A stretch of 47,596 nt of DNA from Verrucomicrobiales bacterium. Lineage in GTDB: Bacteria; Verrucomicrobiota; Verrucomicrobiia; Verrucomicrobiales; DEV007. The DNA lies in the NCBI GenBank assembly GCA_028280355.1, contig JANQMB010000165.1, positions 1 to 47,596 on the forward strand. The letters are read 5' to 3'. The notes under the pieces were generated by a model, which had not been told where the DNA came from, did no database searches, and was given only the letters and a program-made list of their open reading frames with translations. Made by a program: the position numbers and the translations under genes. Positions 2,847 through 25,996 of the stretch are shown piece by piece. Positions within the stretch are counted from its first letter, which is position 1; each line of letters begins with the position of its first letter.

Positions 2847-2899
2847 GGGTGGAGATCAACTGCTGTGCGAACCTGTCGCGCGTGCCGGTGCCGCCGCCA

Positions 2900-3943: not shown

Positions 3944-3948
3944 CGGCC

Positions 3949-4890
3949 CTAGTCGTCGAGGTGCTTGAGGTGGGTGAAGGTCTCGTTGATACCGAACTCC
4001 TTGTAGTACCCGATCGCCTTGTCGACCCCGACCCCGAGGGGCACGCCCGGCTCCCAGGAGAAGTCGGCCTTCGTCTTGCTCGGGTCGAGCAGGATCGAGA
4101 ACACGTCGTCCGGGTTGCGCTCGCGGACCTCGACGGGCTTCTCGAGCTCGATGCCCAGCGCTTCGATGGTGCAGTCGAAGAGCTCCTTGATCGAATAGTC
4201 ACCCCCGGTGGAGATGTGGTAGCAGCCGCAGGTGCCGGCGCCGTCGATGCCCTTCATCACCACGTCCACCAGGTCGTCGACGAAGATGAAGTCCCTGCGC
4301 GTGTCCATGCAGAAGCACTCCTTGCCCTCGCTGAGGCGCTGGAAGAACGTGGGCAGCGGGCCGCTGATGTTCCTGGGGCCGTAGGCGTTGGCGAGCCGGA
4401 AGGACAGGTAGTCGACCTCCCCCTGCCTGACGTAGTTCTCGCCCGCCGTCTTGCTGATCGCGTAGCTGCTCCCCAGCGGCAGGATCGGGTGGTCCAGGGT
4501 GATCGGCTGCTCCAGGGGCTTGAGCCCGTAACAGAGCGCGGTCTGGAAATAGATGAGCCGCTTCACCGAGCCCGCTTCGGCGGCCTGGACGATGTTGGCG
4601 GTCCCGACCACGTTGGTCAGCGCGTCCTCGTTCCAGTCGGACGGGTCCTTGTAGGAGGCGGCGGCGTGCACGACGACCTCCGGGTCGAAGCGCCCGAAGA
4701 GGTCCTCCACCAGCCCCTTGTCGGCGATCGACCCCTCGACGACCTCCAGTCCGGGGGTCTCGGGATCGAGGTTGTCGCGGCGCCCGGTGGCGAAGTTGTC
4801 GATCACGAGGACCTCGTCGCCGCGGGCGATCAACCTGTCTGCAATATGGGAGCCGATGAAGCCGGCCCCGCCTGTTATCAGTGTTTTCAT
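3949..4890 (-). CDS. NAD-dependent epimerase/dehydratase, GalE-like extended SDR
   Basis: The 313-residue protein carries GGAGFIG (residues 7-13), the DNFATG turn after beta-strand 2 that favours NAD over NADP, catalytic Thr117 (YFQTALCYG) and Y143-AIS-K147. All three catalytic positions expected of a UDP-hexose 4-epimerase-type enzyme are therefore present. It also has the substrate-domain motif RRDFIFVDDLVDV. The ATG at 4890 sits 18 bp after the stop of the second AsnB-like gene, and the next gene starts 5 bp after its own stop, so it is in the operon. It probably makes or interconverts a UDP-sugar for the glycan. 4-epimerase and 4,6-dehydratase activities are both possible from the fold. 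Confidence 0.88.
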   Translation of the reverse strand: MKTLITGGAGFIGSHIADRLIARGDEVLVIDNFATGRRDNLDPETPGLEVVEGSIADKGLVEDLFGRFDPEVVVHAAASYKDPSDWNEDALTNVVGTANIVQAAEAGSVKRLIYFQTALCYGLKPLEQPITLDHPILPLGSSYAISKTAGENYVRQGEVDYLSFRLANAYGPRNISGPLPTFFQRLSEGKECFCMDTRRDFIFVDDLVDVVMKGIDGAGTCGCYHISTGGDYSIKELFDCTIEALGIELEKPVEVRERNPDDVFSILLDPSKTKADFSWEPGVPLGVGVDKAIGYYKEFGINETFTHLKHLDD

Positions 4891-4908
4891 TCTGTGTTTT
4901 GTTGGTGG

Positions 4909-6804: not shown

Positions 6805-6863
6805 AACGAGTCGAAAAAATATCTAGTGATAGATGAACCTGGCGATGGCGCGGGAGCCCGTCG

Positions 6864-8120
6864 CTACTTGCGCACGAGAGCCAGCGCGCGGTGGTACAGC
6901 CCCTTCGGGAGGAGGAGGCTACCCAGCTTCCTGAGTTTCGCGTACAGGCGGTTCTTGCGGGCGCTGCGCTCTTCCTGGCGCCGGTTCCAGCGGTGCCACT
7001 TCGCGGCCAGGCCATCGGGTCCGCCCGACCCCGGATCGGCATATCCGAGCACCACCTCGACGAACTTCTCGTACGTGTACTCGCCGGAGGCGACCGCGCG
7101 CCCGTACGCCGACTCCACGATCCTGGCCCTCACCTCGTCGTCCATGGCGAGCTTCAGCGCGTCCTCCATGTCGCTCAGGTCCCGCTTTACCGGGATGAAG
7201 TCCACACCGCTCCTCAGGATCCCGTTGTAGTGGCCCTCCACCAGCACCTGGCAGGTCCTGGTCGCGCAGGCCTCGAGGTGTCTCGGGGAGAGCGCGACGA
7301 GCTCGGCTTCGCCGTCGCGGCCGGGGAAACATGCCTTCTCGATCTCCTCGAAGCCGGCCTCCGGGTTGCCGGCGACGTAGCGTTCCGTCGCCGCCTTGAC
7401 GCTGCCGTCGTGGTCGTGGATCGAAGATCCCCCCTCGACGCCGATGGTGGCCTTCGACCGCAGCAGCACCTCGTACCAGCGGTCGCCAAGGAGGGTGTCC
7501 TCGGGCCGGGTCGAGATATCGGGCCGCAGGCCCAAGCGCTCACAAGCCCGGACGGCGACCTCCGCGATCTTTGGCTTCAGCGCCCCGAAGCTCCCGAGCC
7601 AGGCCTTGGCCTTGTAGGCCCGGTAGAAAACATCGACGTCCCGCTCCCCGCCCCCCAACCTCTCGATCCTCTCCAAAGTCCCGGCGTCGAGGTATCCGGT
7701 GAGCGCTGGCTCCACCGCGATGCCCGCCGCGATCGCCTTCTTGTACACCCGCTCCGATTCCGGGACGACGGTGAGGATCGTCTCGACGCCCATGTCGACC
7801 GCGAAGTCGGAGAGCACGTCCGCCCGCAGGAACTCGTCCTGCGGCATCATCAGCTTCGGACACCCGAGCTTCGCCAACGGCCTGACCAGGTCCCAGTACT
7901 TCTGGAAGTAGTCCATGTCCGTCCACCGCAGCGAGAAGAAGGTGTTGTGGAAGACGACCAGGGAGAACCGCAGCTCGGGGGGGAAGGTCGGGAGGCCGCG
8001 CCGCCCGACGTTGAGATAGAACACCCGACAGCCGGAATAGCGTTCGAAACAGTGCAGGTGATCGACCACAGACGCCCGCTGTACCGCGGAGCGTTGATAG
8101 TGTACTACCAGGATATTCAC
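6864..8120 (-). CDS. Glycosyltransferase, GT-B-like
   Basis: The 418-residue protein begins MNILVVHYQRSAVQRASVVDH from a GTG at 8120 and reads like an EPS-locus glycosyltransferase of GT-B fold. The C-terminal half contains LLRSKATIGVEGGSSIHDHDG and then CQVLVEGHYNGILRSGVDFIPVKRDLSDM. The latter matches the region where such enzymes place a Glu near the nucleotide sugar, followed by the usual 'YIPLKKDFSN' continuation. The basic tail (WHRWNRRQEERSARKNRLYAKLRK) probably touches the inner membrane. It lies between a methyltransferase gene (27 bp upstream) and the second AsnB-like gene (59 bp downstream). Donor and linkage are unknown. A non-catalytic sugar-binding role is less likely. Confidence 0.7.
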   Translation of the reverse strand: MNILVVHYQRSAVQRASVVDHLHCFERYSGCRVFYLNVGRRGLPTFPPELRFSLVVFHNTFFSLRWTDMDYFQKYWDLVRPLAKLGCPKLMMPQDEFLRADVLSDFAVDMGVETILTVVPESERVYKKAIAAGIAVEPALTGYLDAGTLERIERLGGGERDVDVFYRAYKAKAWLGSFGALKPKIAEVAVRACERLGLRPDISTRPEDTLLGDRWYEVLLRSKATIGVEGGSSIHDHDGSVKAATERYVAGNPEAGFEEIEKACFPGRDGEAELVALSPRHLEACATRTCQVLVEGHYNGILRSGVDFIPVKRDLSDMEDALKLAMDDEVRARIVESAYGRAVASGEYTYEKFVEVVLGYADPGSGGPDGLAAKWHRWNRRQEERSARKNRLYAKLRKLGSLLLPKGLYHRALALVRK

Positions 8121-8147
8121 GTGCTTCGGGACCTTGGGATGTCGCCG

Positions 8148-8957
8148 CTAGACCCCCTCGGGCTTCTTGAAGAGATAGTTGATCTCCGTGTCGAAGAACG
8201 CGCCCTTCGCGATGCGGCGCCCGAAGCGGGTCGCGCGGCTCAGCTTGCAGAACGCACCGTTGACGATGCGGAAGGGGGTCGGCCAACGTAGCCTCTCCTT
8301 CGCCGGCGCCGTCCCGGCGGTCTCGAACCGGATGGCCTCGAGCCCGTGGATCTTGACGAAATTCAGGTAGAGGGAGTGCTCGTCGAAGTTCCTGAGGTGC
8401 ACGAAATCATACTTGCAGCTCTTGTCGGCATACCCGGAGAGATCTTCCCTGTAAGGCACCCTCACCAGGAGATACCCACCCGGTTTCAGGCACCGGACCA
8501 TCTGCTGGCAGGCGGCGTTCAGGTCGAGGACATGCTCTAGGACGTCGGTCGAGACGACGAGGTCGAACAGCTCGTCCCGATATGGCAGATTCTCGACGAA
8601 CGCCCTGCAGACTTCGATCCCGCTCTCCTGGGACTCGCGGAGGTACTCCATGCTGATGTCCACCCCGAAACGGTCGAGCGACCCGAAGCGGGCCAACAGC
8701 CTCCCGAGGCCGACGCCGACGTCGAGGACCCGCTGCCCCTCCGAGGAGATCTCCCCGATGAGGGCCGCGGTGGAACCCTCGATCTCCAGCCAGAGCTCCT
8801 CCCTCATGAACGGGTTCTCGCCGACCTCCCTGACGGAGGTGAGGTGGTCGGCGGCGATCCGTTCGTAGTTGTCGGTGTACGGGTCATCCTCGCAAAACGT
8901 CGGGATCCCGTCGCAGAAAGACAGGGGAGATTCCTTGTACAGATCTTTGCTAAACAT
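8148..8957 (-). CDS. SAM-dependent methyltransferase (class I)
   Basis: The 269-residue protein shows a class I methyltransferase core: motif I VLDVGVGLGRL (residues 77-87), an acidic residue after strand 2 (FGVDIS), motif IV-like DLVVSTDVLEHV, and motif VI-like LKPGGYLLVRVPY. It starts at an ATG at 8957. The VLEHV-type motif places it with the Methyltransf_11/23 group common in polysaccharide clusters, where such proteins add methyl groups to sugar hydroxyls or cap the growing chain. It lies between the flippase gene and a glycosyltransferase gene. The acceptor is not identifiable. Confidence 0.85.
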   Translation of the reverse strand: MFSKDLYKESPLSFCDGIPTFCEDDPYTDNYERIAADHLTSVREVGENPFMREELWLEIEGSTAALIGEISSEGQRVLDVGVGLGRLLARFGSLDRFGVDISMEYLRESQESGIEVCRAFVENLPYRDELFDLVVSTDVLEHVLDLNAACQQMVRCLKPGGYLLVRVPYREDLSGYADKSCKYDFVHLRNFDEHSLYLNFVKIHGLEAIRFETAGTAPAKERLRWPTPFRIVNGAFCKLSRATRFGRRIAKGAFFDTEINYLFKKPEGV

Positions 8958-9017
8958 CGCTTCTCGAAGTGGCGCGCCCCAGACGGGGGCGGAAAACTCT
9001 GCGGCCGGCCGCCGTCG

Positions 9018-10490
9018 CTACGAGGGCCTGGGGCGGGAGACCCCCGGCCGGCACATCCGGTTCATGACCGAGACGAACCTCCCCCTCTCCTCGCGCCCCA
9101 GGGCGACGAACGCGCACATGGCAGCGGCGGCCGATATCGAGACGGCCGAGAGCAGCTGCCAAGCCAACCCCTCGGGGCGGTGGAAGAACGCGACCGCCGA
9201 CAGGGCGGTGTAGGCGGCACCGACGAGCAACAGCCTCGGCCGGTCGAAGGCGAGGCGGATCGGATAGGAGGTGTGGATGCGGTTCCACAGCAGGTGGATG
9301 AGGCCCAGCAGGCCGTAACATGTCGCCAGCGCAAGCCCCGCCCCCGGCAGCCCCAGGGCGCGGATCAGGTAGTAGTTCACCGGCACGGAGACACAGGCTC
9401 CGATCACCTGGATGATGGTGATGTGGTAGAGCTTCTCGGAGAAATACTGCGGCGGCGTCAGGAGCGAGCTGGCGATCATCAGCAGCTGGGACAGGGCCAC
9501 CGTGCCGACGACCAGGTAGGCGTCGCGGAACTCCGCGGCGACGATCGTCTGCACGACCGGCGCCGCGAACGCGAAGGCGGCGACGACGAGCAGGCCGAAG
9601 CCGATGCAGTACCGGTTGGTCACCTTGGAGAACAGCCCCGCCGCCCCCGGGTCGTCGCGGTGCTCCATGAAGAACGGCAACCACGCCCTCTGGAAGGCGA
9701 CCAGGATGATGCCGATCGCCATGCCGAAACTGGAGCCGACGGAGTAGATACCCAGCTGCCCGAGCCCGTGCGTGTTCTCCAGCGCGATGCGGTTCCCCTG
9801 CTGGATGACCCAGAGCATCGCGAAAGAGGGGACGAACGGCAGGCCCATGAGGACGAGCTGCCTCATGTAGGATGGCCCCGGCCTGGGGACCCCGCCCCCA
9901 ACGAAGACCACCACCAGCCCGGCCAGGTTGACCAGTTGGCCGACGAGGATCGCACCGAGCCAGCCCTCCAGACCGAGCTTCCACCAGGCCACCGCGGCGA
10001 TGCTGAGCAGGGCGGTGAGGAGCGTCGAGCCCATCGAGATGATCACGAACGCCCTCGCCCTGTTCTCGAATTGGAGATAGAGGGACAAGGGGCTCGCCAC
10101 GACCATCGCCGCGGCGGTGGACATGGATATCAGGAAGTATGTCCGCGACCCCGCCCCGCCGAGCCAGGCGGCGGCGATCGTGTCTGCGAGCAGGACCGAT
10201 AGCAGCAGCAGGGCGACCGTGCTGGCCAGTAGGAAAGTGACCGCGGACATCACCACCCGCCGCCTGCCCGCGAGCCCCGCCTCCCGGTAGTACACCGGCG
10301 CGAGCGACGCGGAGAACCCGAAGGAGAACACCGGGACGACGACGAACGAGATCATCTGCAGAAGCGCGGCGATGCCGTATTCCCTCGGCGTGATCAGGTG
10401 GGTGAAGAGCGGCAGCAACAGGAACCCGATCAGTTTGTTGATCGCCCCGCCGAGACCATAGATCGCGGCGTTCCTGGCTAGCTTGCCCAT
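9018..10490 (-). CDS. Wzx-type oligosaccharide flippase (MOP superfamily)
   Basis: This is a 490-residue, very hydrophobic protein with about 12 to 14 predicted membrane helices and short polar loops. The N-terminus (MGKLARNAAIYGLGGAINKL) and the first helices (TPREYGIAALLQM) match the polysaccharide_synt family. The role would be to move the undecaprenyl-diphosphate-linked repeat unit from the cytoplasmic to the periplasmic face. The Wzx assignment implies a Wzy-dependent pathway, although no polymerase gene is in the window. The ATG at 10490 is 77 bp downstream of the discoidin-like gene. The C-terminal tail is basic and cytoplasmic, as usual. Confidence 0.88.
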   Translation of the reverse strand: MGKLARNAAIYGLGGAINKLIGFLLLPLFTHLITPREYGIAALLQMISFVVVPVFSFGFSASLAPVYYREAGLAGRRRVVMSAVTFLLASTVALLLLSVLLADTIAAAWLGGAGSRTYFLISMSTAAAMVVASPLSLYLQFENRARAFVIISMGSTLLTALLSIAAVAWWKLGLEGWLGAILVGQLVNLAGLVVVFVGGGVPRPGPSYMRQLVLMGLPFVPSFAMLWVIQQGNRIALENTHGLGQLGIYSVGSSFGMAIGIILVAFQRAWLPFFMEHRDDPGAAGLFSKVTNRYCIGFGLLVVAAFAFAAPVVQTIVAAEFRDAYLVVGTVALSQLLMIASSLLTPPQYFSEKLYHITIIQVIGACVSVPVNYYLIRALGLPGAGLALATCYGLLGLIHLLWNRIHTSYPIRLAFDRPRLLLVGAAYTALSAVAFFHRPEGLAWQLLSAVSISAAAAMCAFVALGREERGRFVSVMNRMCRPGVSRPRPS

Positions 10491-10567
10491 CTGACTTCAC
10501 CCGCCGCCTGGCGTGTCGCTCCATCCACCCGGCCCCACGTGGCAGGTGACCCCGCCGGCGCCCCGGC

Positions 10568-11476
10568 CTACCTCGCCTCGACCTCGACGATGTGGAAATA
10601 GTCGTTGGCGGTGTTCTCCAACCCCTGGATGCGGATCACCCTGACGGGGGTCGGTTCCTTGAACTCGTGGACCTGCCAGTCCTTCGACGGTTTCCTCGAC
10701 CGGTCGGCGACCGTCTCCCAGCTCTTTCCGTCGGCCGAGATGTCCAACTTGTACCGATACTCCCGCGCGTCCCCGCTCCATAGCAAGAAGCGGATCTCGT
10801 TCAGCTTGTAGCGCCTGGCCAGCTCGACCTCGAAGCTGGTCGGGCAGCGGCCGTAGGCGACCCCGTCATTCAGGACGATGGCGGTCTCGCCGTCGATGAG
10901 GAACTCCGCACCGACCGGCGCCCGGGCCTCGGCGCCGCGGGAGGCGAGCGCGAGATCCTTGGGCGGCCCCTCGGGCCCCGGTTCGGGTTCGGGCTCGCCC
11001 ACCCCCTCCAGCTCGGCGAGGGTACGCTGCACCTCGGCGGCGGCCTCGAGCTCCCGGTTGCGGACGAGGCGGGCCTCCAGCGCGCGCAGCGCATCGATGT
11101 ACTTCGCCCGCCAGGGCCTCGCGCGCGACTCCGCGGTGCGGGAATAGATGGTGCCCAGGCGGCGCAGCTCCCGCGGATCCTCGGGGAGTTCCAGGGGCAG
11201 CGCGATCGGGTTCTCCAGCGCCAGACCGACGCGGATCTCGCGCACCTTGAGCGCCCCCTCGATGTCCCTGCCGTCCGCGAGCCGCTTCTCCAAGCTGTCG
11301 AGCTGGCCGAGGAACGACTCCCTCAAGGGCGCCAGGATCTCCTTCACCTTGCGCTCGTATGACTGGGTGAGGCTCGCCAGCTCCGGGCCGGGCTCGGCCA
11401 CGGCGCCCGACCAGGAAAGCGGGAGTGCGACCAGGATGGCGGCCGCGCTTGCCCACCGTTGTATCGGGACAGGCAT
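10568..11476 (-). CDS. Exported coiled-coil protein with F5/8 type C (discoidin-like) domain
   Basis: I place the start at the ATG at 11476 because MPVPIQRWASAAAILVALPL begins a clear signal peptide ending near AVA-EP; the frame stays open upstream but without a signal. The 302-residue product then has two helical segments with the pattern LExxLxxGRDIEGALKVRE and LEARLVRNRELEAAAEVQR, a motif frequent in secreted Verrucomicrobiota proteins. After a proline/glutamate linker comes a C-terminal beta domain (YKLNEIRFLLW, KLDISADGKSWETV, VRVIRIQGL) resembling an F5/8 type C carbohydrate-binding domain. It probably sits in the periplasm or at the cell surface and may bind the glycan made by the locus. 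It lies between the flippase and the aminotransferase gene. No enzyme motif is visible. Confidence 0.75.
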   Translation of the reverse strand: MPVPIQRWASAAAILVALPLSWSGAVAEPGPELASLTQSYERKVKEILAPLRESFLGQLDSLEKRLADGRDIEGALKVREIRVGLALENPIALPLELPEDPRELRRLGTIYSRTAESRARPWRAKYIDALRALEARLVRNRELEAAAEVQRTLAELEGVGEPEPEPGPEGPPKDLALASRGAEARAPVGAEFLIDGETAIVLNDGVAYGRCPTSFEVELARRYKLNEIRFLLWSGDAREYRYKLDISADGKSWETVADRSRKPSKDWQVHEFKEPTPVRVIRIQGLENTANDYFHIVEVEAR

Positions 11477-11584
11477 CTCCGGAGCGTAGCGGGATCGGGA
11501 CATCGACCTCAAGCCAGTTCTCCAGACACAGGGGGCCGCCCCGCCGCGAACGCCCACGGGGACATGCGGCCCTGGCCCGGTGAC

Positions 11585-12670
11585 CTACGCGAAGGCCGCA
11601 CACACCTGCGAGACCTCCGCCTCGCTCAGGTAGGGGTTCATCGGCAGGCTCAGGCCCTGCGAGGCGATCTTCTCCGTCACGGGGAAGTCGCCGGCCGAGT
11701 GTCCCAGATACCCGAAAACCGGCTGCAGGTGCAGGGGGACGGCGTAGTAGCTCACCGACGGGACACCGGCCTCTTTGAGGGAGGCGGAGAGCGCGTCGCG
11801 GTCGTCGGAGAGAACGGTGTACTGGGCATACACCGAGGTGTTACCCACCGCGACACGCGGCAGCGCCACGCCCGAACCCCCGAGCTTCGAATCGTACACC
11901 GCGGCCACCTCCTGCCGTTTGACGACCTCCCCGTCGAAGAGGTCGAGCTTGGCGAGCACGACCGCCGCCTGCAGCGTGTCGAGGCGCCCGTTGATCCCGA
12001 GGATCGGGTGGTGGTGTTTCTTCGCCTGCCCGTGCACCCGGTTCTGGCGCATCGCGCCAGCGAGCTCGTCGTCGTCGGTGAACAGCGCCCCCCCGTCCCC
12101 GTACCCGCCGAGGGGCTTGGACGGGAAGAACGAGGTGCTGCCGACCAGCGAGAGCGAGCAGGACTTCTCGCCGTGGTGGGTCGCGCCGAAGGACTGGGCC
12201 GCGTCCTCGATCACCGGGAGGCCGCCGTTGCGGGCGGCGATCTCGTTGATCGCCGTCATGTCGGCGGTCTGGCCGTAGATGCCGACCGGCATGATGGCCT
12301 TGGTCTTGTCGGTGATCGCCGCCTCGAGCAGCCCGGGGTCCATGTTCCAGGTCTCCGGGTCGATATCGACGAACACCGGTTTCGCGCCGAGCAGCGCGAT
12401 CATCTCGGCGGTCGAGATCCAGGTGTAGGGGACGGTGATCACCTCGTCCCCCGGGCCGACACCGAGCGCCATCATCGCGATGAGCAGGGTGTCGGTGCCG
12501 CTCGAGGCGCCGATGCAGTGTTTGGCCCCGACGTAGTCGGCCAGGCGCTCCTCGAGCTCGGCCACCTCCGGCCCCATGATGTAGCGGCCGTGGTCGAGCA
12601 CCGCCGCGATGCGCCTGTCGAGCTGTTCGCGGATAAGCGCCTGCTGAGATTTCAGATCGATGAAGTCCAT
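11585..12670 (-). CDS. wbpE: PLP-dependent sugar 3-aminotransferase, DegT/DnrJ/EryC1 family (WbpE-like)
   Basis: The 361-residue protein has the DegT/DnrJ/EryC1/StrS hallmarks: GASSGTD binding the PLP phosphate (residues 54-60), aromatic PYTWISTAEM, Asp156 in EDAAQSFGA, and the Schiff-base Lys185 in FFPSKPLGGYGDGG. The sequence style (MDFIDLKSQQ, YIMGPEVAELEE) is that of WbpE/WlbC, which aminates C3 of UDP-2-acetamido-2-deoxy-3-oxo-glucuronate with glutamate as donor. This fits the wbpA-, wbpB- and wbpD-like genes just upstream. It is separated from them by the acyltransferase/SGNH pair. The start at 12670 is 30 bp after the SGNH stop. Specificity for the 3-keto sugar is an inference from context. 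Confidence 0.87.
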   Translation of the reverse strand: MDFIDLKSQQALIREQLDRRIAAVLDHGRYIMGPEVAELEERLADYVGAKHCIGASSGTDTLLIAMMALGVGPGDEVITVPYTWISTAEMIALLGAKPVFVDIDPETWNMDPGLLEAAITDKTKAIMPVGIYGQTADMTAINEIAARNGGLPVIEDAAQSFGATHHGEKSCSLSLVGSTSFFPSKPLGGYGDGGALFTDDDELAGAMRQNRVHGQAKKHHHPILGINGRLDTLQAAVVLAKLDLFDGEVVKRQEVAAVYDSKLGGSGVALPRVAVGNTSVYAQYTVLSDDRDALSASLKEAGVPSVSYYAVPLHLQPVFGYLGHSAGDFPVTEKIASQGLSLPMNPYLSEAEVSQVCAAFA

Positions 12671-12700
12671 AGTAGCGATAGGTCTATCGTTTCGGATCGG

Positions 12701-13420
12701 TTACCGGGTAATCATTCCTCGCTCTATGAGCATCTGGTTTATTTTCTCGTACCCCTGATCGGTGAAATGCAATGCGTCCCCAAAGTCCCGCCCCGCCAAA
12801 TCTGGCGGTGGAGGAGCGTAGCTGGCCTGCGGTAGTCTCCTGGACAGGATCTGGTTTACCTCAACGCGGGCTGTTTCTATGCCAGCTGACCAAAACGGCA
12901 ACCTCCAATAGGGGATCTCCCCGACCGGCAAGACTCCCAAGACAACTACGCGATCTGCGCCCCTCTCTTCGAAAGCATCCTTGAGACTGAGGAGGTTCTC
13001 GACGACACGAAGCACAAGCTCGTCTTCCGGAAAACTGCTATAGGCAATAGACTTGAGGTCATTGATGCCAGCCTGGATAACCACCACCTGGCCGCTGAGG
13101 TCGAGTTCCCGGTGAGCCTCAAGAGCCCAGCGTAGCTGTTCTGTCGTCGCCCCTGGAACACCCAAATTGAGCACCGGAACGATAGGTGGAGGCGACCACT
13201 GATCTGCACGCGAGTCACCGAAGAAAACGATCCCGCCCCTTTCTAACTCCTCTGGCCGCTGGCGGACGAGTTTATCAGCAATTACGCGGGCGGGTGGCGC
13301 TAGCCGGAGCGAACTCTCCCGCCATAGCATCCACCTGATGCCCCTATATGCCACCATCACAGCGACAAGCGACACGATTGCAGCAACAACCAGCAGCAAC
13401 CAGATCCGGCGACCCATCAT
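12701..13420 (-). CDS. Membrane-anchored SGNH/GDSL hydrolase-family protein
   Basis: The start is set at the ATG at 13420, which overlaps the stop of the acyltransferase gene as ATGA; an open stretch further upstream belongs to the other gene's antisense frame. The 239-residue protein has one N-terminal transmembrane segment (IWLLLVVAAIVSLVAVMVAY) and then an SGNH domain. Block I is FFGDSRADQW (Ser), block II NLGVPGAT (Gly), block III GINDL (Asn), and block V DALHFTDQGY (Asp, His). All four catalytic residues are present. It probably faces the periplasm and moves or removes acyl groups on the glycan together with the adjacent AT3 protein. GC is much lower than in the neighbours: 28 of 60 bases at 13021-13080, against 48 of 60 at 15181-15240. 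Confidence 0.82.
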   Translation of the reverse strand: MMGRRIWLLLVVAAIVSLVAVMVAYRGIRWMLWRESSLRLAPPARVIADKLVRQRPEELERGGIVFFGDSRADQWSPPPIVPVLNLGVPGATTEQLRWALEAHRELDLSGQVVVIQAGINDLKSIAYSSFPEDELVLRVVENLLSLKDAFEERGADRVVVLGVLPVGEIPYWRLPFWSAGIETARVEVNQILSRRLPQASYAPPPPDLAGRDFGDALHFTDQGYEKINQMLIERGMITR

Positions 13421-14493
13421 TTCTTGACGAAGCGGGATTCCACCAGCGCATAGAAAACCGCCCCTACTGGAATAGCAACCAATGCCCCCAACGGATAATA
13501 CTGCTGAGGGAACGGCGCCGCGAGCGTGAACATCTGCTGGACGAGGTAGATCGAATACGTCCTCTTCCCAACCCACACAAGCATCCGACCAAAGGCTCCC
13601 GGAAGCGACCACGACGCCTCATACGAAAGAATAACCAGGGGCATCAACGCCACCCCCATGAGGACTGTGAGCATCGAACTCCTCCAGAGCAAGGCGACAG
13701 CCAATGCCACATGGCCGGCGAACACGATCAGAGGGAGCGCCTTCCGAAACCTCTTCCAGCCAAAATTTCGAAATGGTCGATACAAGCCCCAGATAAATCC
13801 GAACACCATCGGCCAAACAGCCACCTGCGTCGCATATTTATAGAAGAAGGCACTTCCGAACATGATAGGATCGGCGACCTTAGCACTGACCATCGCGTAC
13901 CAGGCACCCGTTGCTAAAAGCATCCCCGAAACGGCGAACAGGCCGATCTTGCCGACCGGACCCGACCGGAGCGCCAGCCAGAACAAGAGAGGGCTCGCGA
14001 GATAGAAATGCATCTCGCATGAGATGCTCCAAAGATGGCCTAGGGGAAATATCTCGCGCGTATAGTTGGCATAGAAGAAGATAACTGAGAGGTTGAAATT
14101 GAAAGCGTCCCCCCAGACGAAGGGTGAGATGACCACACATAGCGCAATAAACACCCACGCCGTGGGGACAAGGCGCCAGAGCCTCTTCCTCGGCAGCTCG
14201 AGCCAGATGTTCCCCCCACGTCGCTCGATCGACAGGAGGCTTAGTGCGGTAAGGAGACCAGAGATGACAAAGAAGAGATTGACGCCCGTACGGCCAACCC
14301 CCTCGACGAACCCGGTGTGCTTAAACCCATGGTTGATGAGCACTAGGATCATAGCCCAACCGCGCCACTGATCTAGTGAATCGAAACGCTTGTTGTTTGG
14401 CATCGCGGGTTCAGCACCAGGCATGACGTCAACGTCGCTGCCGCCCTGAGCCCCCGTCTCGGTGGAGGCCGCGCCATGATCGAGATCGCTCAC
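13417..14493 (-). CDS. Acyltransferase 3 (AT3) family membrane O-acyltransferase
   Basis: This is a 358-residue polytopic membrane protein. After a polar N-terminus it shows the family start [20 protein letters not shown] (Arg and His of the first helix) and the [18 protein letters not shown] segment, which are diagnostic for AT3 proteins, then about ten hydrophobic helices. AT3 proteins carry acyl groups, usually acetyl, across the inner membrane to sugars. The GTG start at 14493 overlaps the stop of the wbpD-like gene (GTGA), and its own stop overlaps the SGNH start, so translation of all three is probably coupled. GC is low (30 of 60 bases at 13801-13860). It differs from OafA-type fusions in that the SGNH domain is a separate protein. 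Confidence 0.86.
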
Positions 14494-15134
14494 TTGAATT
14501 CGTCGTAGGTCCTGCTGCCCTTCCTCAGCCCCTCAGGCAGCGGCTCGTCCTCGTCGAGGTCGAGGCAGCGCAGGGCGCCGTCGGCCTCCTCGCGGTAGCG
14601 GAAACCGCTCTCCGGGCAGACCATCACACCGTCCCCGTCGGGGTCCTTCAGGAGGTGGCCGTGGCGGCTCATCCAACCCCTGACGCGACCGGGGACGCCG
14701 ACCACGAACCCGTAGTCGGGCACGTCCCTGGCGACCACGGCGCCGGCGGCGATGAAGGCGTATCGGCCCAGGGTGATGCCACAGACGATGGTGGCGTTGG
14801 CGCCGACCGTCGCGCCGCGGCGGATGAGGGTCCGCTCGTAGAGGGACTGGCGCACCACCTGGGAGCGCGGGTTGGTGACGTTGGTCAGGACGCAGGAGGG
14901 GCCGAGGAACACGTCGTCCTCGATCTCGGTCCCCGTGTAGATGGCGACGTTGTTCTGGACCTTGACGTTCGAGCCGACCCGCACGCCGCCGGCCACCATC
15001 GTGTTCTGGCCGAAGACACACCCCTCGCCGATCTCGGCCCCCGCGCAGATGTGCGCGAAGTGCCAGATCTTGCTGCCGGGGCCGATCTGCGCGCCGTCGT
15101 CGACGACGGCCGTCTGGTGGGCGAAGTAGCTCAT
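14490..15134 (-). CDS. wbpD: Left-handed beta-helix N-acetyltransferase (WbpD-like)
   Basis: The 214-residue protein has hexapeptide repeats across residues 10-135 ([58 protein letters not shown]). This is the left-handed beta-helix of sugar N-acetyltransferases. The [15 protein letters not shown] start and WHFAHI segment are typical of WbpD/WlbB, which acetylate the 3-amino group of UDP-2-acetamido-3-amino-uronate with acetyl-CoA. After the helix comes a short C-terminal tail (residues 150-214) with [11 protein letters not shown] and [12 protein letters not shown], which resembles the tail found in many WbpD relatives. It lies 17 bp after the wbpB-like gene. Confidence 0.87.
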
Positions 15135-15151
15135 CGCGGTATGTCCCCGGT

Positions 15152-16096
15152 CTAACTAGCGGCGCCGGCGGGCGGGCTCGCCCCCTCGAGCACGCGGACG
15201 ACGTCGGCGCCGTTCTGGCCGTCGGAGCGCGGCGTGGCGCGCGTCTCGAGGCAGTCGATGAAATGCTCCATCTCGAGCCGGAGCGGCTGGCCGCTGCCCT
15301 CGAAGACGACCTCCTCCCCCCCGTCGCAGTTCTGCAGTTCGGCGTCGATGGTCTTGTGGTGCAGGGTCACGTTCTGGGCGACCTCGTCGTAGACCAGCAT
15401 GCCCTTCTCGCCGACCACGGTCAGGCGGCGGCGGTTCTCCGGCCACAGCCAGGAGTTGTGCAGGTGGGCCTTCGTCCCGCCTGGGAAGTCCATGTGCAGA
15501 TAGGTGTCGTCCTCGATCCCCGGCTGCAGGCCACAGTGGCCGGAGAACACGCTCGAGGTCGGCGCCGCGCCGGCCAGGTGGAGCAGGACGGCGACATCGT
15601 GCACGCCGAGGCTCCAGAGGACGTTCTCGGCGGCGCGGGCGCGGCCGAGCTTCGAACGCTCTTGGTGCATCGAATAGACCCTGCCCAGCTCCCCGGCGTC
15701 GAGGTACTCCTTGAGCCAATGGACTGCGGGCTGGTAGAGCAGCAGGTGCCCGACCATCAGCACCCGCCCCCCGCGGTCCGCGGCCGCGACGAGGTCCTCG
15801 GCCTCGGCGGTGCTGAAGGTCATCGGCTTCTCGACGAAGACGTCGATACCCGCCTCCAGGAAGGCCTTGGCGACCCCGTGGTGGGTGGGGACGGGGGTGG
15901 CGATCGCGACGGCGTCGACGCCGGCCTCGAGCAGCGGCTCGTAGCCCTCGTGGATCTCGGCGTCGGGTGCCTCGGCGGCGGCGCGCTCGCGCAGGGCGGG
16001 CACGGCCTCGGCCACGTGCGAGAGGGCGCCGAGGTCGCGCAGGTTGCGGACCAGGTTGATGCCCCAGTTTCCAGCTCCGATGACGGCGATCTTCAT
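15152..16096 (-). CDS. wbpB: Gfo/Idh/MocA family sugar oxidoreductase (WbpB-like)
   Basis: The 314-residue protein starts [19 protein letters not shown] at an ATG at 16096 that overlaps the wbpA-like stop by 4 bp, which fixes the start. GAGNWG (residues 7-12) binds NAD(H), and the family's EKP motif with catalytic Lys90 is in [10 protein letters not shown]. The second domain has [14 protein letters not shown] with the conserved Asp/His. In the wbp pathway such enzymes oxidise C3 of UDP-GlcNAcA to the 3-keto form and recycle NADH with 2-oxoglutarate. The order A-B-D with coupled starts supports this substrate. Other 3-dehydrogenases of this family are possible by sequence alone. Confidence 0.85.
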
Positions 16097-17421
16097 GCCT
16101 TGTACAGTTGCCCCTCCCTGGCTGCGACGCCGTCCTTGGCGAGGGCGTTGCGGGTGTCGACGATCAGGTCGGCGTGCTCGACCAGGGAGGCGAGGTCGAA
16201 CGCCCTGTGGTGGGTGGCGATCACCACGCAGTCGTAGGAGGCCACCACCTCGGGAGACCACTCGACCGACCTGCGCCCCGTCCACTCCGCGTGTTCCCGC
16301 GTCGGGGTGATCTCCGGGATATGGGGGTCGTAGTAGTCGACCTCCGCGCCGGACGTCGCCAGCCCGTCCATCAGGTGGAAGGTGGGCGACTCGCGCATGT
16401 CGTCGACGTTCTCCTTGTAGGCGAGCCCCATCAGCAGCACGCGGCTGCCGTTGACCGGCTTCTTGCGGGTGTTCAACGCGGCGCCGACCTGCCGGACCAC
16501 GTATGCCGGCATCGACTCGTTCACCTCGCCGGCCAGCTCGATGAAACGGGTGTGCACACCGTACTCCCTCGCCTTCCAGGTCAGGTAGAACGGGTCGATC
16601 GGGATACAGTGGCCGCCCAACCCCGGGCCGGGGTAGAACGCGTTGAAGCCGAAGGGTTTGGTCTTCGCCGCCTCGATGACCTCCCAGATGTCGATGCCCA
16701 TCCGGTCGGCGGCGACCTTGAGCTCGTTGACCAGGCCGATGTTGACCGAGCGGTAGATGTTCTCCAGCAGCTTGGCGAACTCGGCGACCTGCGTCGAGGA
16801 GACCGGCACGACCTCCTCGACCACCGCCTCGTAGAGCGCCCGGCCGACCTCGGTGCAGGCGGGCGTCGAGCCGCCCATGACCTTGGGGATGTTGACCGAC
16901 GAGAACTGCGCGTTGCCCGGGTCCTCCCGCTCCGGGGAGTAGACCAGGAAGAAGTCCTCGCCGACCACCAGGCCGCGCGACTCGATCTTCGGGCGCAGCT
17001 CCTCCTCCGTGGTGCCGGGGTAGGTGGTGGACTCCAGGCTGAGCACCTGCCCCTTGCGGAGGTGCGGCAGCAATGCGTCCAGGGTGTCGAGCACGTAGCT
17101 GAGGTCGGGCTCGTGGTGGTCGCTGAGGGGCGTCGGGACGCAGAGGACCAGCGCGTCGCAGTCGCCGGCGCGCGCGAAGTCGGCCGTGGCCGAGAGCAGG
17201 CCGGCGTCGACGCCGGCCCCGATCGGCCCGGCGTCGATGTGTTCTATATAGGAGCGACCGCCGTTGATCGCCTCGACCTTGGCCGAGTCGATGTCCAGCC
17301 CGAGCACGCGGTGCCCCTTGGCGACGAAGCCGAGGCCGAGGGGCAGGCCGACGTATCCGAGGCCGACGATGCCGACCGTCGCCTCCTTGTTGTTGATCTT
17401 CGATGTGAGTTCTGAGGTCAT
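16093..17421 (-). CDS. wbpA: UDP-N-acetyl-D-glucosamine 6-dehydrogenase (WbpA/WecC family)
   Basis: The ATG at 17421 overlaps the upstream glycosyltransferase stop as ATGA; the resulting 442-residue length is normal for the family. GIVGLGYVGLPLG (residues 17-29) binds NAD. The thiohemiacetal Cys272 is in GLGGHCIPIDPFYLTW, and the Lys/Asn helix reads NIYRSVNIGLVNELK. The enzyme oxidises C6 of a UDP-N-acetylhexosamine twice, giving UDP-GlcNAcA, the first step toward diacetamido uronic acids. The Cys-Ile-Pro-Ile-Asp-Pro motif points to the N-acetylhexosamine dehydrogenases and not to UDP-glucose dehydrogenase. It is translationally coupled to the genes on both sides. Confidence 0.9.
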   Translation of the reverse strand: MTSELTSKINNKEATVGIVGLGYVGLPLGLGFVAKGHRVLGLDIDSAKVEAINGGRSYIEHIDAGPIGAGVDAGLLSATADFARAGDCDALVLCVPTPLSDHHEPDLSYVLDTLDALLPHLRKGQVLSLESTTYPGTTEEELRPKIESRGLVVGEDFFLVYSPEREDPGNAQFSSVNIPKVMGGSTPACTEVGRALYEAVVEEVVPVSSTQVAEFAKLLENIYRSVNIGLVNELKVAADRMGIDIWEVIEAAKTKPFGFNAFYPGPGLGGHCIPIDPFYLTWKAREYGVHTRFIELAGEVNESMPAYVVRQVGAALNTRKKPVNGSRVLLMGLAYKENVDDMRESPTFHLMDGLATSGAEVDYYDPHIPEITPTREHAEWTGRRSVEWSPEVVASYDCVVIATHHRAFDLASLVEHADLIVDTRNALAKDGVAAREGQLYKA

Positions 17422-18203
17422 GGTGAGATGGGGTATTTCTTGATGCGCGTCAGCTGCAGCATGGCGCGGATGACGAAGAGGGGGTTGCTCCGCAGGTAGC
17501 GTCTCCAGAGGCGCCGCGGCTCCTTGCAGAGGCGGTATAGCCATTCGAAGCCGGAGCGCTGCACCCAGCGCGGCGCCTGGCTGACGGTACCGGAGTGGAA
17601 ATCGAAGGCGGCGCCAACCGCGAACATCAGGGTGGTGTCGAGCTTGTCGATGTTCTGCGCGCAGAACCGCTCCTGCTTCGGGCAGCCGATCCCGACCCAC
17701 ATCAGGTCGGGTTTCTTCTCGGCCAGCTCCGCGCTCAGCTCGCCGAACTCGTCGTCGTTCAGGGGTCGGAAGGGCGGCGTGTAGTGGCCGACGATGCGCA
17801 GGCCGGGGAGGCGTTCCTCCAGCTTCCCCTTCAAGGTCTCGACCACCCCCTCTTTGCCCCCGTAGAGATAGTGGGTGACGCCGCGCTCACGCCCCTCGTC
17901 CATGACCTTGAACATCAGGTCGGGGCCGTATGTGCGGTCGTCCTCCTTGCACCCCTGGGCCTTCCCCATCCAGACCAGCGGCATGCCGTCCGGGGTGGTG
18001 AGGAACGAGTTGTTCAGCAGCCGGCGGAACTCGGGGTCGCGGTGGGCGTGCCAGACGACGTGGGCGTCCGAGGCGCAGACGTACCCCTTGTGGCCCGCGG
18101 ACACGGCGCCGAAGACCGCCTCCGCGGCGATCTCGAGGTTCACCCGGCTGACGCCGACGCCGGTGACGTTGTAGCGCCCGGGGATGACGAGGTCCTCGGC
18201 CAT
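17418..18203 (-). CDS. WecG/TagA/CpsF family glycosyltransferase (GT26)
   Basis: The start chosen is the ATG at 18203 (MAEDLVIPGRYNVTGVGVS), 4 bp after the fcl stop; an upstream in-frame start would overlap fcl. The 261-residue product has the GT26 signatures: YVCASDAHVVWHAHRD near the N-terminus, TPDGMPLVWMGK with the conserved Asp, YLYGGKEGVVE, and VGIGCPKQERF. The family transfers N-acetylmannosamine or its uronic acid to lipid-linked GlcNAc at the inner membrane, using C-terminal basic helices (WLYRLCKEPRRLWRRYLR) for membrane contact. Here the donor could be the uronic acid made by the wbp-like genes that follow directly. That link is an inference. Confidence 0.88.
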   Translation of the reverse strand: MAEDLVIPGRYNVTGVGVSRVNLEIAAEAVFGAVSAGHKGYVCASDAHVVWHAHRDPEFRRLLNNSFLTTPDGMPLVWMGKAQGCKEDDRTYGPDLMFKVMDEGRERGVTHYLYGGKEGVVETLKGKLEERLPGLRIVGHYTPPFRPLNDDEFGELSAELAEKKPDLMWVGIGCPKQERFCAQNIDKLDTTLMFAVGAAFDFHSGTVSQAPRWVQRSGFEWLYRLCKEPRRLWRRYLRSNPLFVIRAMLQLTRIKKYPISP

Positions 18204-18207
18204 CGGT

Positions 18208-19158
18208 TCAGGCCGAGCGGACCCGGTCGGAGGCAAGTTCGGACAGGAAGGCGGCGTAGGCGTCCTTCAGGCCAGCCCTGAGCGAGATCTCCGGGGCCCA
18301 GCCGAGCGCCGCCATCTTGCTGTTGTCCATCAGCTTGCGGGGGGTGCCGTCGGGTTTCGACGGGTCGGTCTCGATCTCGCCCGCGTAGCCGACGGTCTCG
18401 GCGACCATGGTGGCGAGCTCGCCGATGGCGATGTCCTCACCGGCGCCGAGGTTGACCCAGTCCGGCGGGTCTGGCTCCGCGAGGAGGTGGAGGCAGCCGG
18501 CGGCGAGGTCGTCGACATGCAGGAACTCCCGCCTCGGTTTGCCGGTCCCCCAGATGACCACCCGGGGGGCCCCCTCCTCTTTCGCCTCGTGGAAGCGCCG
18601 GATGAGGGCGGGTATGACGTGGGAGTTCTCGGGGTGGTAGTTGTCCCCCGGGCCATAGAGGTTGGTGGGCATCGCCGAATGGTATAGAACCCCGTACTGC
18701 TTCCGGTAGTGCTGGCAGAGCTTGAGCCCGGCGATCTTCGCGATCGCGTACGCCTCGTTCGTCGGCTCGAGGGGGGACGAGAGCAGGCAGTCCTCGGGCA
18801 TGGGCTGTGGCGCCTGCTTCGGGTAGATGCAAGACGAGCCCAGAAACAGCACCCGCGGCACCCCCGCGCGGAAGGCCCCGTGTATCAGGTTCGCCGCGAT
18901 CGCAAGGTTCTCGTAGATGAAGTCGGCCGGGTAGGTGTCGTTGGCGTGGATGCCGCCGACCTTGGCGGCGGCGATCACCACCAGGTCAGGCTTCTGGTCA
19001 CCGACGAACGCCTCGACTTCGGCCTGCCTCGTGAGGTCGAGCTCCGCGCGGGTGGCCACCGGCAGGTCCTCGAAACCCTTCGCCCGCAGCGCCCTGAGCA
19101 GGGCGGCGCCGACCATGCCGCGGTGGCCGGCGACGTAGACTCTGTCTTCGGGGGACAT
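18208..19158 (-). CDS. fcl: GDP-L-fucose synthase
   Basis: The 316-residue SDR starts [27 protein letters not shown] (residues 11-17) is the NADP-binding loop typical of this enzyme, catalytic Ser is in [16 protein letters not shown] (residues 106-120), and Y137-AIA-K141 is the catalytic pair. The 'SSCIYPK...PMPE...[15 protein letters not shown]' layout is diagnostic for GDP-4-keto-6-deoxymannose epimerase/reductase. It works directly after Gmd, whose gene ends 23 bp upstream, to give GDP-L-fucose. The length matches the family (about 310-320). Confidence 0.94.
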
Positions 19159-19181
19159 AGCTGAGATGGGGCGGCGGCCCC

Positions 19182-20189
19182 CTACGCGAGGTCGCGCTCG
19201 GCGTCGGCGATCGCCTTCTCGCGCCTGGCGAGCTTGAGGTCGGCCTCGACCATGATCTCCACCAGCTCTTTGAACTTCACCTTCGGCTCCCACCCGAGCT
19301 GGGCTTTGGCCTTGGCGGGGTCACCGATCAGCAGCTCGACCTCCGCCGGCCGCTCGTACCGTTTGTCGTATTCGACGAACTCCTCCCAGTCCAGGTCGAG
19401 GGCGGCGAAGGCCGCCTGGCAGAACTCGCGCACCGAGTGGGTTTCGCCGGTGGCGATCACGTAGTCGTCGGGGCGGTCCTGCTGGAGCATCAGCCACATC
19501 ATCTCGACGTATTCGCGCGCGTAACCCCAGTCGCGCTTGGCGTCGAGGTTCCCGAGATAGAGCTTGTCCTGCAGGCCCATCTTGATGCGCGTGGCGGCGC
19601 GGGTGATCTTCCGGGTCACGAAGGTCTCCCCCCGCCGGGGGGACTCGTGGTTAAAGAGGATCCCGCTGCTGGCGTGCAGGTCGTACGACTCGCGGTAGTT
19701 CACGGTCAGCCAGTGCGCGTAGACCTTGGCGCAGGCGTACGGCGAGCGCGGCCAGAACGGGGTGTCCTCGGTCTGGGGCACCTCCTGGACCTTGCCGAAC
19801 ATCTCTGACGACGAGGCCTGGTAGTAGCGGACATGCTCGATCAGCCCCGCCTCCCGGATCGCCTCGAGGATCCGCAGCGCGCCGATCCCCACCATGTCCC
19901 CGGTCGACTCCGGGATATCGAAGGACACCCTGACGTGGCTCTGGGCGCCCAGGTTGTAGACCTCGTCCGGCTTCAGGTCATACAGCAACTTGGTCAGCGC
20001 CGAGGAGTCGCAGAGGTCCCCGTAGTGGAGCGTCAGGTTCTCGTGGTCGTAGATGTGGTCGATCCGGCTGGTGTTGAAGGACGACGCGCGCCGGATGATC
20101 CCGTGCACGTCATAACCTTTCTCCAGGAGTATCTCGGCGAGATAGGAGCCGTCCTGGCCAGTGATCCCTGTGATGAGGGCGCGTTTCAT
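19182..20189 (-). CDS. gmd: GDP-mannose 4,6-dehydratase
   Basis: The 335-residue protein starts [26 protein letters not shown] is the Gmd version of the SDR glycine motif, followed by [11 protein letters not shown], which contacts [21 protein letters not shown] carries the catalytic Ser/Glu region and [12 protein letters not shown] the Tyr and Lys. [16 protein letters not shown] and [16 protein letters not shown] are strongly conserved Gmd segments. It converts GDP-D-mannose to GDP-4-keto-6-deoxy-D-mannose. It stands 13 bp after the methyltransferase gene and directly before fcl, the normal gene pair for GDP-L-fucose. Confidence 0.95.
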
Positions 20190-20202
20190 AAGATGGTATT
20201 TG

Positions 20203-20976
20203 CTATAATTCGCGGTGGTCTAAAACCCACTTGTCGCTCTCGTGGCGGATATCCAGAAGGTTCTCCCTGGCGAACCTCTGCACCGCCATCCTCACCCCGT
20301 CCCAACCCCAGTCGTCGCCGAACAGCACGCCACCGGGTGCGACGAGGTCCCAGTAGTCGCAGAGGTCGGCGTAGACGCCCTCCTCCTCGTGGCTGCCGTC
20401 GATATAGATCAGGTCCGCCCTGACCCCGTTGGCGCGCAGCCAGAGGGCGGCGGTGGCCGAGGTCTGCGGGAACGGGACCACCCGACCCTGGTGGCCGCGG
20501 TGGCAGACGTTGGCGAGAAACTGGTAGTACACCGAGGGGTAACCGTTCTTCAGGGCGAGGCCGCCATGGCGCTCGGGGTCGTCGAGGTCGGTCCAGAACT
20601 CCAGCGCCCCCAGCCAGGTGTCGATACAGAGGATCTTCGCCTCGCTGCCGGCCCCCTCGAGGGCGTCGGCCATCTCGATCGCGGACCCCCCTTTCCAGGT
20701 GCCCACCTCGACGATGAGCCCCAGGCGGTCGGCCCGCTCGCCGATCAGTTTTCGAAACGCGGGCGACTGGCTCCCCCAGCCGGAGGGGTCATACTCGTAG
20801 CCCCCGTAGTCGAAGCCCTCGTAGGGGTCGACCTTGTGCAGCCGGCAGGCGATCTCGTCCGCAGGCACCCCCCCCTCCACCACCCCGTCCCGGGCAGGGG
20901 GGGCCGGGCGCAACCGCTTGACCGAATAGCCCATCCGGTAGGCCAGCGATTTCACGAGCCGTTGTGCAAAGCCCAT
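20203..20976 (-). CDS. Class I SAM-dependent methyltransferase (Methyltransf_24-like)
   Basis: The 257-residue protein is the first biosynthetic gene after the two regulators. Motif I is [20 protein letters not shown] (residues 87-106), the acidic residue after strand 2 is in ILCIDTWLG, and [18 protein letters not shown] with [10 protein letters not shown] gives two acidic pairs. These are the signatures of the TylF/cephalosporin-hydroxylase-like Methyltransf_24 group, where the Asp residues can bind a metal. Such proteins O-methylate sugars in several glycan and antibiotic pathways. It starts at the ATG at 20976 after a 150-bp leader that holds an ops-like sequence. The acceptor is unknown. 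Confidence 0.82.
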
Positions 20977-21018
20977 ATCGATGAGAGGTGATCCCTAGCC
21001 CGGTCGCCTGGCGCTCCC

Positions 21019-21030
21019 GACGCTGCCGCC
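21019..21030 (-). promoter_or_regulatory. ops-like antitermination element candidate
   Basis: On the minus strand this reads GGCGGCAGCGTC, which differs at two positions from the E. coli ops element GGCGGTAGCGTG that pauses RNA polymerase and recruits RfaH; the last position is variable between sites. It lies in the untranslated gap between the NusG/RfaH-like gene and the first biosynthetic gene, where such an element would have to be. GC-rich DNA makes this match easier by chance, and family members outside enterobacteria may use other sites. Confidence 0.35.
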
Positions 21031-21126
21031 CCCGGTCGCTCGCCCCTCCCCTGGGACGAAACCGATTGGCTGGCTAGCTGTGGGGAAGGTGCCGATGGCG
21101 GTTTCCCGGTTGTCTTGGGGGGCAGG

Positions 21127-21693: not shown

Positions 21694-21783
21694 GGTCAGC
21701 CGGAAGTGCGATGCGGGGCTATGCTGGCGGGGTTCACTGACGCGGGAGGAGATGGTGCGGCCGGGGGTGGGCGCCGGGGCGCC

Positions 21784-22329: not shown

Positions 22330-22363
22330 TCGGGAGTAGGGAGACTACCCAATGCCTCAATTT

Positions 22364-22381
22364 GTTCAATTTAAAATGAAC
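22364..22381. promoter_or_regulatory. Palindromic operator candidate upstream of the GbsR-type gene
   Basis: GTTCAATTTAAAATGAAC is an 18-bp palindrome with 16 of 18 positions symmetric (GTTCA arms and a TTTAAA centre). It lies 35 bp before the regulator's start codon in the AT-rich gap between dnaE and the glycan locus. The size and spacing fit a dimeric winged-helix repressor site. Binding by the adjacent gene product is inferred. Confidence 0.5.
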
Positions 22382-22395
22382 GATTTTAAAAAATC
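22382..22395. repeat. Inverted repeat adjoining the operator candidate
   Basis: GATTTTAAAAAATC has perfect 6-bp arms (GATTTT/AAAATC) around AA. It abuts the 18-bp palindrome and contains TAAAAT on the minus strand, a possible -10 hexamer. I found no convincing -35 partner. It could be a second half-site or promoter DNA. Confidence 0.35.
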
Positions 22396-22468
22396 ACTCC
22401 GGAATTTTAGAAAATATTAATTGTGTGCTGGTTATTAAAACTATGAATTCCCGGGGGAACCGAGGTCG

Positions 22469-25996
<3,528 letters not shown>

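Follow-up and report, generated by a model that had tools for sequence, protein, structure and literature searches.

A conserved palindrome as candidate operator of a GbsR-type regulator at the head of a glycan locus in Verrucomicrobiota

The stretch of DNA analysed here (the window, 47,596 nucleotides) is a whole contig (G000:C228) of the draft genome of a Verrucomicrobiales bacterium, an assembly of 4.42 Mb in 370 contigs which is 85.6% complete. On the minus strand the dnaE gene is followed by a gene encoding a GbsR-type regulator, a gene encoding a NusG paralog, an ops-like element and a glycan locus (Table 1). The contig ends 815 bp past the glycan locus, and the extent given is that within the contig. 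The gap between dnaE and gbsR (22330-22468) comprises 139 bp and has 37% GC against 67% for the window, which bears out the initial annotation of an AT-rich gap in GC-rich DNA.

The genes of the glycan locus encode methyltransferases, a GDP-mannose dehydratase, a GDP-fucose-synthase-like protein, a WecG/TagA glycosyltransferase, a nucleotide-sugar dehydrogenase, a Gfo/Idh protein, hexapeptide and acyl transferases, a GDSL lipase, a DegT aminotransferase, a flippase and epimerases. The locus also encodes a protein with a F5/8 type C (discoidin-like) domain (10568-11557, minus strand) and two asparagine-synthase-like proteins with glutamine amidotransferase domains (816-2846 and 4909-6804, minus strand), both within the one locus. 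The ORF at 6864-8120 had no Pfam match.

Table 1 Genes and DNA elements at the head of the glycan locus (positions are those of the window)
Feature	Position	Strand	Basis or remark
Glycan locus (presumed operon)	816..20976	minus	listed ORFs all on the minus strand
Ops-like element CGACCGGGGGCGGCAGCGTC	21019..21038	minus	between nusG and the first glycan gene
NusG paralog, RfaH/UpxY-like, 188 aa	21127..21693	minus	Pfam NusG, NCBIfam, PDB RfaH
GbsR-type (MarR-superfamily) regulator, 181 aa	21784..22329	minus	phmmer, CudC model, Foldseek
TAGTCT, proposed -10 box	22342..22347	minus	12 nt before the gbsR ATG; inferred
Proposed -35 box TTGAAC (operator right arm)	22364..22369	minus	N16 TANNNT in relatives
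Candidate GbsR operator, GTTCATTTTAAATTGAAC on the minus strand	22364..22381	minus	conserved N8 spacing upstream of gbsR
14-bp hyphenated inverted repeat GATTTT-AA-AAAATC, GATTTTAAAAAATC	22382..22395		6-bp arms, 2-bp spacer
dnaE	22469..25996	minus	NCBIfam DnaE, 1418 bits; neighbour upstream, outside the switch

The regulator showed no Pfam family at E ≤ 0.001. Its residues 30-115, the winged-helix head, matched Mj223 (1ku9) by phmmer (5e-17), and the CudC equivalog model matched residues 28-115 (9.1e-12) with 45.1 of 218 bits, which is under the cutoff. The AlphaFold model (monomer, 7 sequences, mean pLDDT 71) has a winged helix followed by C-terminal helices. The best solved structure found by Foldseek was again 1ku9 (2.3e-07, TM 0.47/0.55), with a rmsd of 18.4, and therefore the domain orientation is not reproduced. 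Mj223 is also the template used for GbsR in PMC6207618. Among named records the nearest GbsR proteins are from Verrucomicrobia, mostly Verrucomicrobiales. As a winged-helix regulator of the MarR superfamily with Mj223 as best match the protein resembles GbsR, OpcR and OpuAR of Bacillus, which take part in choline and glycine betaine control, although its putative targets are glycan genes and not osmoprotectant genes. It differs from CudC in that the model match is confined to residues 28-115 and lies far under the cutoff.

The NusG paralog and the ops-like element that precede the glycan genes were missed in the initial annotation and are conserved in relatives. The NGN domain of the paralog was recognized by Pfam NusG (8.5e-11, 42.7 bits against a cutoff of 22.2) while the KOW domain, with 19.4 bits, is slightly under its cutoff of 22.3, and RfaH was matched in the PDB with 6.4e-07. 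The protein is nearest to RfaH (NCBIfam, 71.2 bits, cutoff 144.5) and UpxY (62.7 bits, cutoff 100), neither of which was reached; it stayed under every curated NCBIfam cutoff, LoaP included. Its predicted structure (8-sequence alignment, pLDDT 74, pTM 0.57), inspected for the alpha-helical C-terminal domain that free RfaH has before its fold switch, has a beta C-terminal domain.

The ops-like element is placed after the nusG stop, 42 bp before the first glycan ORF. The pattern RACC-N2-GGGCGGYAGC was found no further than 350 bp after nusG in 16 of the 21 loci that have nusG, the window counted, and with one mismatch in two others (L012 and L020); it was not found in the remaining three (L015, L021 and L022). 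Ops-like leaders had scores of 25.8-33.0 and none of 1050 shuffled leaders exceeded 15.5, a partly circular comparison, as the matrix was built from the same members and the shuffles keep base content only. In its own genome the window copy is the sole ops-like match with up to one mismatch, and with up to three mismatches such matches are no commoner than the control (9+12 vs 10+11). A second match, C149:23497, falls within a long ORF on the other strand that looks like a sulfotransferase gene; this match was taken as chance.

The consensus of the element across relatives is GGCGGYAGCGTG. The element of the window shares 10 of 12 bases with ops12 of E. coli, GGCGGTAGCGTG (PMC5995543), which occurs exactly (12/12 bases) in L003, L016, L020 and L025. 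The differences from the E. coli sequence are at ops bases 6 and 12, both C in the window; in relatives base 6 is C or T. In E. coli the change T6A lowers RfaH recruitment about threefold, and T6C was not found in the main text of the same report (PMC5995543). The Rfam JUMPstart family (RF01707), which ends CCAgGGGCGGUAGCGUG, gave no match to the window at E ≤ 10; in the loci of 12 relatives (E ≤ 5) it matched L071 alone, with 21.1 of 35 bits, under the threshold. The Rfam search of the window region returned nothing useful.

The arrangement is like that of RfaH and ops in Proteobacteria, where a NusG paralog and an ops site precede polysaccharide genes. RfaH has been found in 23 of 117 phyla, about 95% of it in Proteobacteria, and rfaH is described as lacking common gene neighbours (PMC7593976), unlike the paralog studied here, which is tied to a GbsR gene. 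It is also like UpxY of the capsule operons of Bacteroides, a NusG paralog encoded within the operon that it activates (PMC7593976), although here the NCBIfam cutoff of UpxY was missed and the partner is a GbsR-type regulator with a putative operator of its own. Seven ops-like sites were observed in genome G037 and four in G017. As the latter has no GbsR match at E ≤ 1e-10, control by NusG and ops may reach further than that by GbsR.

The initial annotation described an 18-bp palindrome with 16 symmetric bases upstream of the regulator, and this is indeed present. The sequence GTTCAATTTAAAATGAAC is symmetric in 8 of 9 pairs (16 of 18 bases) and lies 34 bp from the gbsR ATG, the A of which is at 22329 on the minus strand. 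When the gap was shuffled 1000 times with its dinucleotides preserved, 24 of the shuffles held an 18-mer symmetric in 8 or 9 of its 9 pairs; from the window sequence by itself the palindrome is barely beyond chance and no more than suggestive. The genome search for GTTCA-N8-TGAAC that had been proposed was run and gave two places, the window site and C24:8874. This second place was considered as another operator and was taken as chance because it is located inside a 173-aa ORF. When the core was limited to A and T and up to two mismatches were allowed, four places were found, of which the window site was the sole perfect one (reversed control 0). The three degenerate places (on C44, C63 and C163) were set aside, no recognisable glycan gene being seen by eye beside any of them. 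The longer form TGTTCA-N8-TGAACA, with up to one mismatch, was found at the window site alone.

The palindrome is solid because of the comparison across relatives and not because of the window sequence. In 57 genomes of the same family and order, 30 gene rows were obtained at E ≤ 1e-20, of which 26 (L001-L026) were compared. Exact GTTCA-N8-TGAAC was present within 400 bp upstream of the match in 23 of these 26 near orthologs, and the other spacings (N4-7 or N9-14) in none. The exact site did not occur in any of 5200 shuffled upstream regions, and no other five-mer in the form X-N8-X' was present in more than 2/26. The three orthologs with no exact site before gbsR (L020-L022) belong to one family.

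The full set comprised all 130 gbsR gene rows at E ≤ 1e-20 across Verrucomicrobiota. Sites were counted from 500 bp before the matched start to 30 bp past it, and rows without site were retained, among them L020-L022, L164 and L027; in this last locus a site lies about 940 bp before the first gbsR segment, with another ORF intervening. The exact site was found upstream of 87/130 gbsR genes and the relaxed TTCA-N8-TGAA upstream of 113/130, so that 43 genes are without the exact palindrome in this range and 17 without even the relaxed form. At the other spacings between N4 and N14 there were no exact sites, apart from two at N13, and 0 to 6 relaxed ones. The share of genes with the exact site falls with tblastn identity, from 7/7 at 60% or more and 18/18 at 50-60% to 28/33 at 45-50%, 25/41 at 40-45% and 9/31 below 40%. 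An exact site is lacking before gbsR in family f6. In other classes the operator core often starts GTTCAGTA, and six of the eight gbsR genes in family f16 have TTCA-N8-TGAA only, which suggests that the outermost base pair of the operator has drifted; the loci concerned are L141, L156, L159 and L163 (families f27 and f34) and L144, L158, L195, L201, L224 and L227 (family f16). The comparison of the upstream regions of orthologs, set out beforehand, thus found the palindrome conserved (23/26 and 87/130) and confirms, at the level of sequence, that it is real and recurs at the same place across much of Verrucomicrobiota. This conservation strongly supports its proposed role as an operator for autoregulation.

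The 14-bp inverted repeat, which directly adjoins the palindrome, had been described as its partner in an operator pair. The repeat is present, though as part of a pair it did not hold: it is at chance level and missing from the nearest relatives. Of 1000 dinucleotide shuffles of the gap, 244 contained an inverted repeat whose arms measure 6 bp and whose spacer is no longer than 4, and because so many shuffles hold one as good the repeat is judged ordinary. A repeat with 6-bp arms lies no further than 30 bp from the operator in only 2 of 23 orthologs, the window counted. In the nearest relative (G005, protein 75% identical) the operator is identical letter for letter and the repeat is absent. 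We therefore rejected it as a second operator and regard it as a chance feature of AT-rich DNA.

The site with the AT core was then compared with the presence of GbsR in 387 Verrucomicrobiota genomes. It was found in 26 of the 86 genomes with GbsR (E ≤ 1e-20) and in 10 of the 301 without, in a tally made by hand from tables in which some of the 26 sites are not beside gbsR; the co-occurrence has a Fisher value of 1.6e-11, kinship not corrected. The reversed control pattern occurred in 6/387 genomes. One genome with the site and no GbsR match (G365) belongs to a genus, g87, whose five other sampled members all carry GbsR. The divergent second gbsR copies of G026 and G033 (L086 and L087) have the operator in front too, as do gbsR genes in whose retrieved flanking sequence tblastn gave no match to the NusG of the window (e.g. 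L153, L154, L162 and L177). The palindrome thus appears to track GbsR rather than the glycan locus. The site can be placed elsewhere: in L068 (G042) it is located after nusG, and in L071 (G046) on a different contig, where an ops-like element follows after 117 bp and, at a further distance of about 2.5 kb, a gene that resembles one for UDP-galactopyranose mutase. Far palindromes in other relatives (L070, L074-L077 and L079) have unrelated neighbours by eye and are probably chance.

An operator followed after 95-125 bp by ops was found at 17 places in 13 of the 387 genomes, all 13 with GbsR, and the reversed-pattern control gave none. One downstream ORF was scanned with Pfam at nine of these places and the other eight were read by eye. 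The scanned ORFs encode epimerase/dehydratases (3), glycosyltransferases (2), a UDP-galactopyranose mutase, a nucleotide-sugar dehydrogenase (695 nt on), an APS kinase (396 nt on) and, with a match under the cutoff, an O-antigen ligase (Wzy_C); these nine places lead glycan or sulfation genes. Six of the other eight resemble the scanned ones, and L124 and L125 have no recognisable first gene. In L119-L123 and L133 the order is operator, gbsR, nusG, operator and ops, followed by glycan genes. At L128 (G422:C47, minus strand) an operator at 1634 and ops at 1515 are followed by an APS kinase gene, and some of these glycans may therefore be sulfated. The GbsR-type protein CydE responds to sulfate (PMC6207618), which gives a lead for the ligand of this GbsR.

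In the window the right arm of the palindrome reads as the proposed -35 box TTGAAC, which is followed by N16, the proposed -10 box TAGTCT, 12 nt and the ATG. Transcription starting about 7 nt after TAGTCT would give a leader of 5-6 nt, that is, a near-leaderless mRNA. Of the 81 conserved sites whose flank is long enough, 16 have TANNNT starting exactly 16 bp past the right arm, and each of the other spacings between 8 and 29 is represented by no more than two (binomial 1.6e-13 with p = 1/64, kinship not corrected). In 61 of the 81, TANNNT is absent at 13-21 bp. A consensus sigma70 scanner found no promoter at 20900-22600, which counts mildly against the promoter reading. As in the gbsAB operator of B. 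subtilis, the putative operator is an AT-rich inverted repeat at a promoter (PMC7396694). The half-sites of gbsAB are, however, 4 bp apart and downstream of the start site, whereas here the arms are 8 bp apart and the palindrome overlaps the proposed -35 box.

From these DNA elements, their order, conservation and co-occurrence we infer the following mechanism. The palindrome would be the operator of a dimer of the adjacent GbsR-type protein. Since the right arm is the proposed -35 box of the gbsR promoter, the bound regulator would cover it and block RNA polymerase, repressing its own gene and the nusG paralog behind it. A ligand would release GbsR and allow a near-leaderless gbsR-nusG transcript to be made. 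The NusG paralog would load onto RNA polymerase at the ops-like element and keep it processive through the glycan locus of about 20 kb. In the window this operator precedes nusG as well, and the antiterminator would thus be produced too once GbsR is released. In some relatives GbsR may in addition repress the glycan promoter directly, from an operator about 100 bp upstream of ops; with the operator also directly before glycan operons, GbsR would gate initiation and the NusG paralog elongation. Repression at an operator overlapping the -35 box, with NusG loading at ops, is the simplest reading, and we give the whole explanation, in which GbsR represses its own promoter through the palindrome and the NusG paralog then drives the glycan locus, a probability of about 0.7.

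The initial annotation had seen in the palindrome a switch for the whole 22-kb locus, and this is plausible and stands in part. Several relatives have a second operator between nusG and the glycan genes, while the window has one operator only, that in front of gbsR, and its glycan genes are preceded by the NusG paralog and the ops-like element. It is conceivable, though we think it rather doubtful, that GbsR controls itself and nusG only, with the glycan genes on a constitutive promoter of their own and NusG and ops acting independently of GbsR. Such an arrangement would fit the window, where nusG and the glycan genes have no operator between them, and the ops-like sites in genomes with no GbsR match, such as those of G017 (reversed control 1). 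It fits poorly with L068, L078, L119-L123, L133 and L134, where an operator is found between nusG and glycan-like genes (partly by eye), and no promoter-like site was found at 20977-21126, a weak test. GbsR could also bind the palindrome and act on its own promoter as an activator or a dual regulator. The centre of the palindrome is near -37 of the proposed start, where class II activators also have their sites, and the right arm is a fair -35 box. GbsR, OpcR, OpuAR and CydE are, however, described as repressors (PMC7396694, PMC6207618), and we consider activation unlikely.

Other explanations concern the identity of the site itself. That it belongs to another DNA-binding protein which co-occurs with these loci would agree with its presence in genomes without a GbsR match (the 10/301 above, at E ≤ 1e-20) and with the sites far from gbsR. 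This is improbable, since the site is found before gbsR copies whether or not nusG is beside them, and before the divergent paralogs, and in genus g19 both GbsR and the AT-core site are absent from all 23 sampled genomes. Least credible is that the palindrome is mere AT-rich promoter or UP DNA, or part of a dnaE terminator. The gap is AT-rich and some shuffles gave a palindrome as good, but ten bases and their spacing are fixed while the flanks diverge, the gene upstream is not always dnaE (by eye) and the scan found no terminator-like site; conservation has already largely refuted this reading.

Regarding previous work, searches of the literature on GbsR, NusG and polysaccharide found no report of the pairing, with subscription journals mostly outside the search. 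For GbsR or RfaH in Verrucomicrobiota no treatment of the subject was found among the matches listed, the terms occurring one or two times per text. The matches listed for JUMPstart, RfaH and polysaccharide concerned Enterobacteria and Aeromonas or were reviews.

The sequence GTTCA-N8-TGAAC provides a defined candidate operator for a large uncharacterised clade of GbsR proteins, which would be tied to cell-surface glycan synthesis rather than to osmoprotection. The comparison also places an ops-type site and a NusG paralog in Verrucomicrobiota, and the operator and ops pair, with 17 places and none in the control, is distinctive enough for glycan operons to be located by sequence alone. It is an evenly balanced question whether a two-lock glycan switch operates phylum-wide in Verrucomicrobiota, with the GbsR clade gating initiation and the linked NusG paralog elongation via ops. 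If this is true, the release of GbsR would both start the transcript and supply the factor needed to finish it, in a coherent feed-forward.
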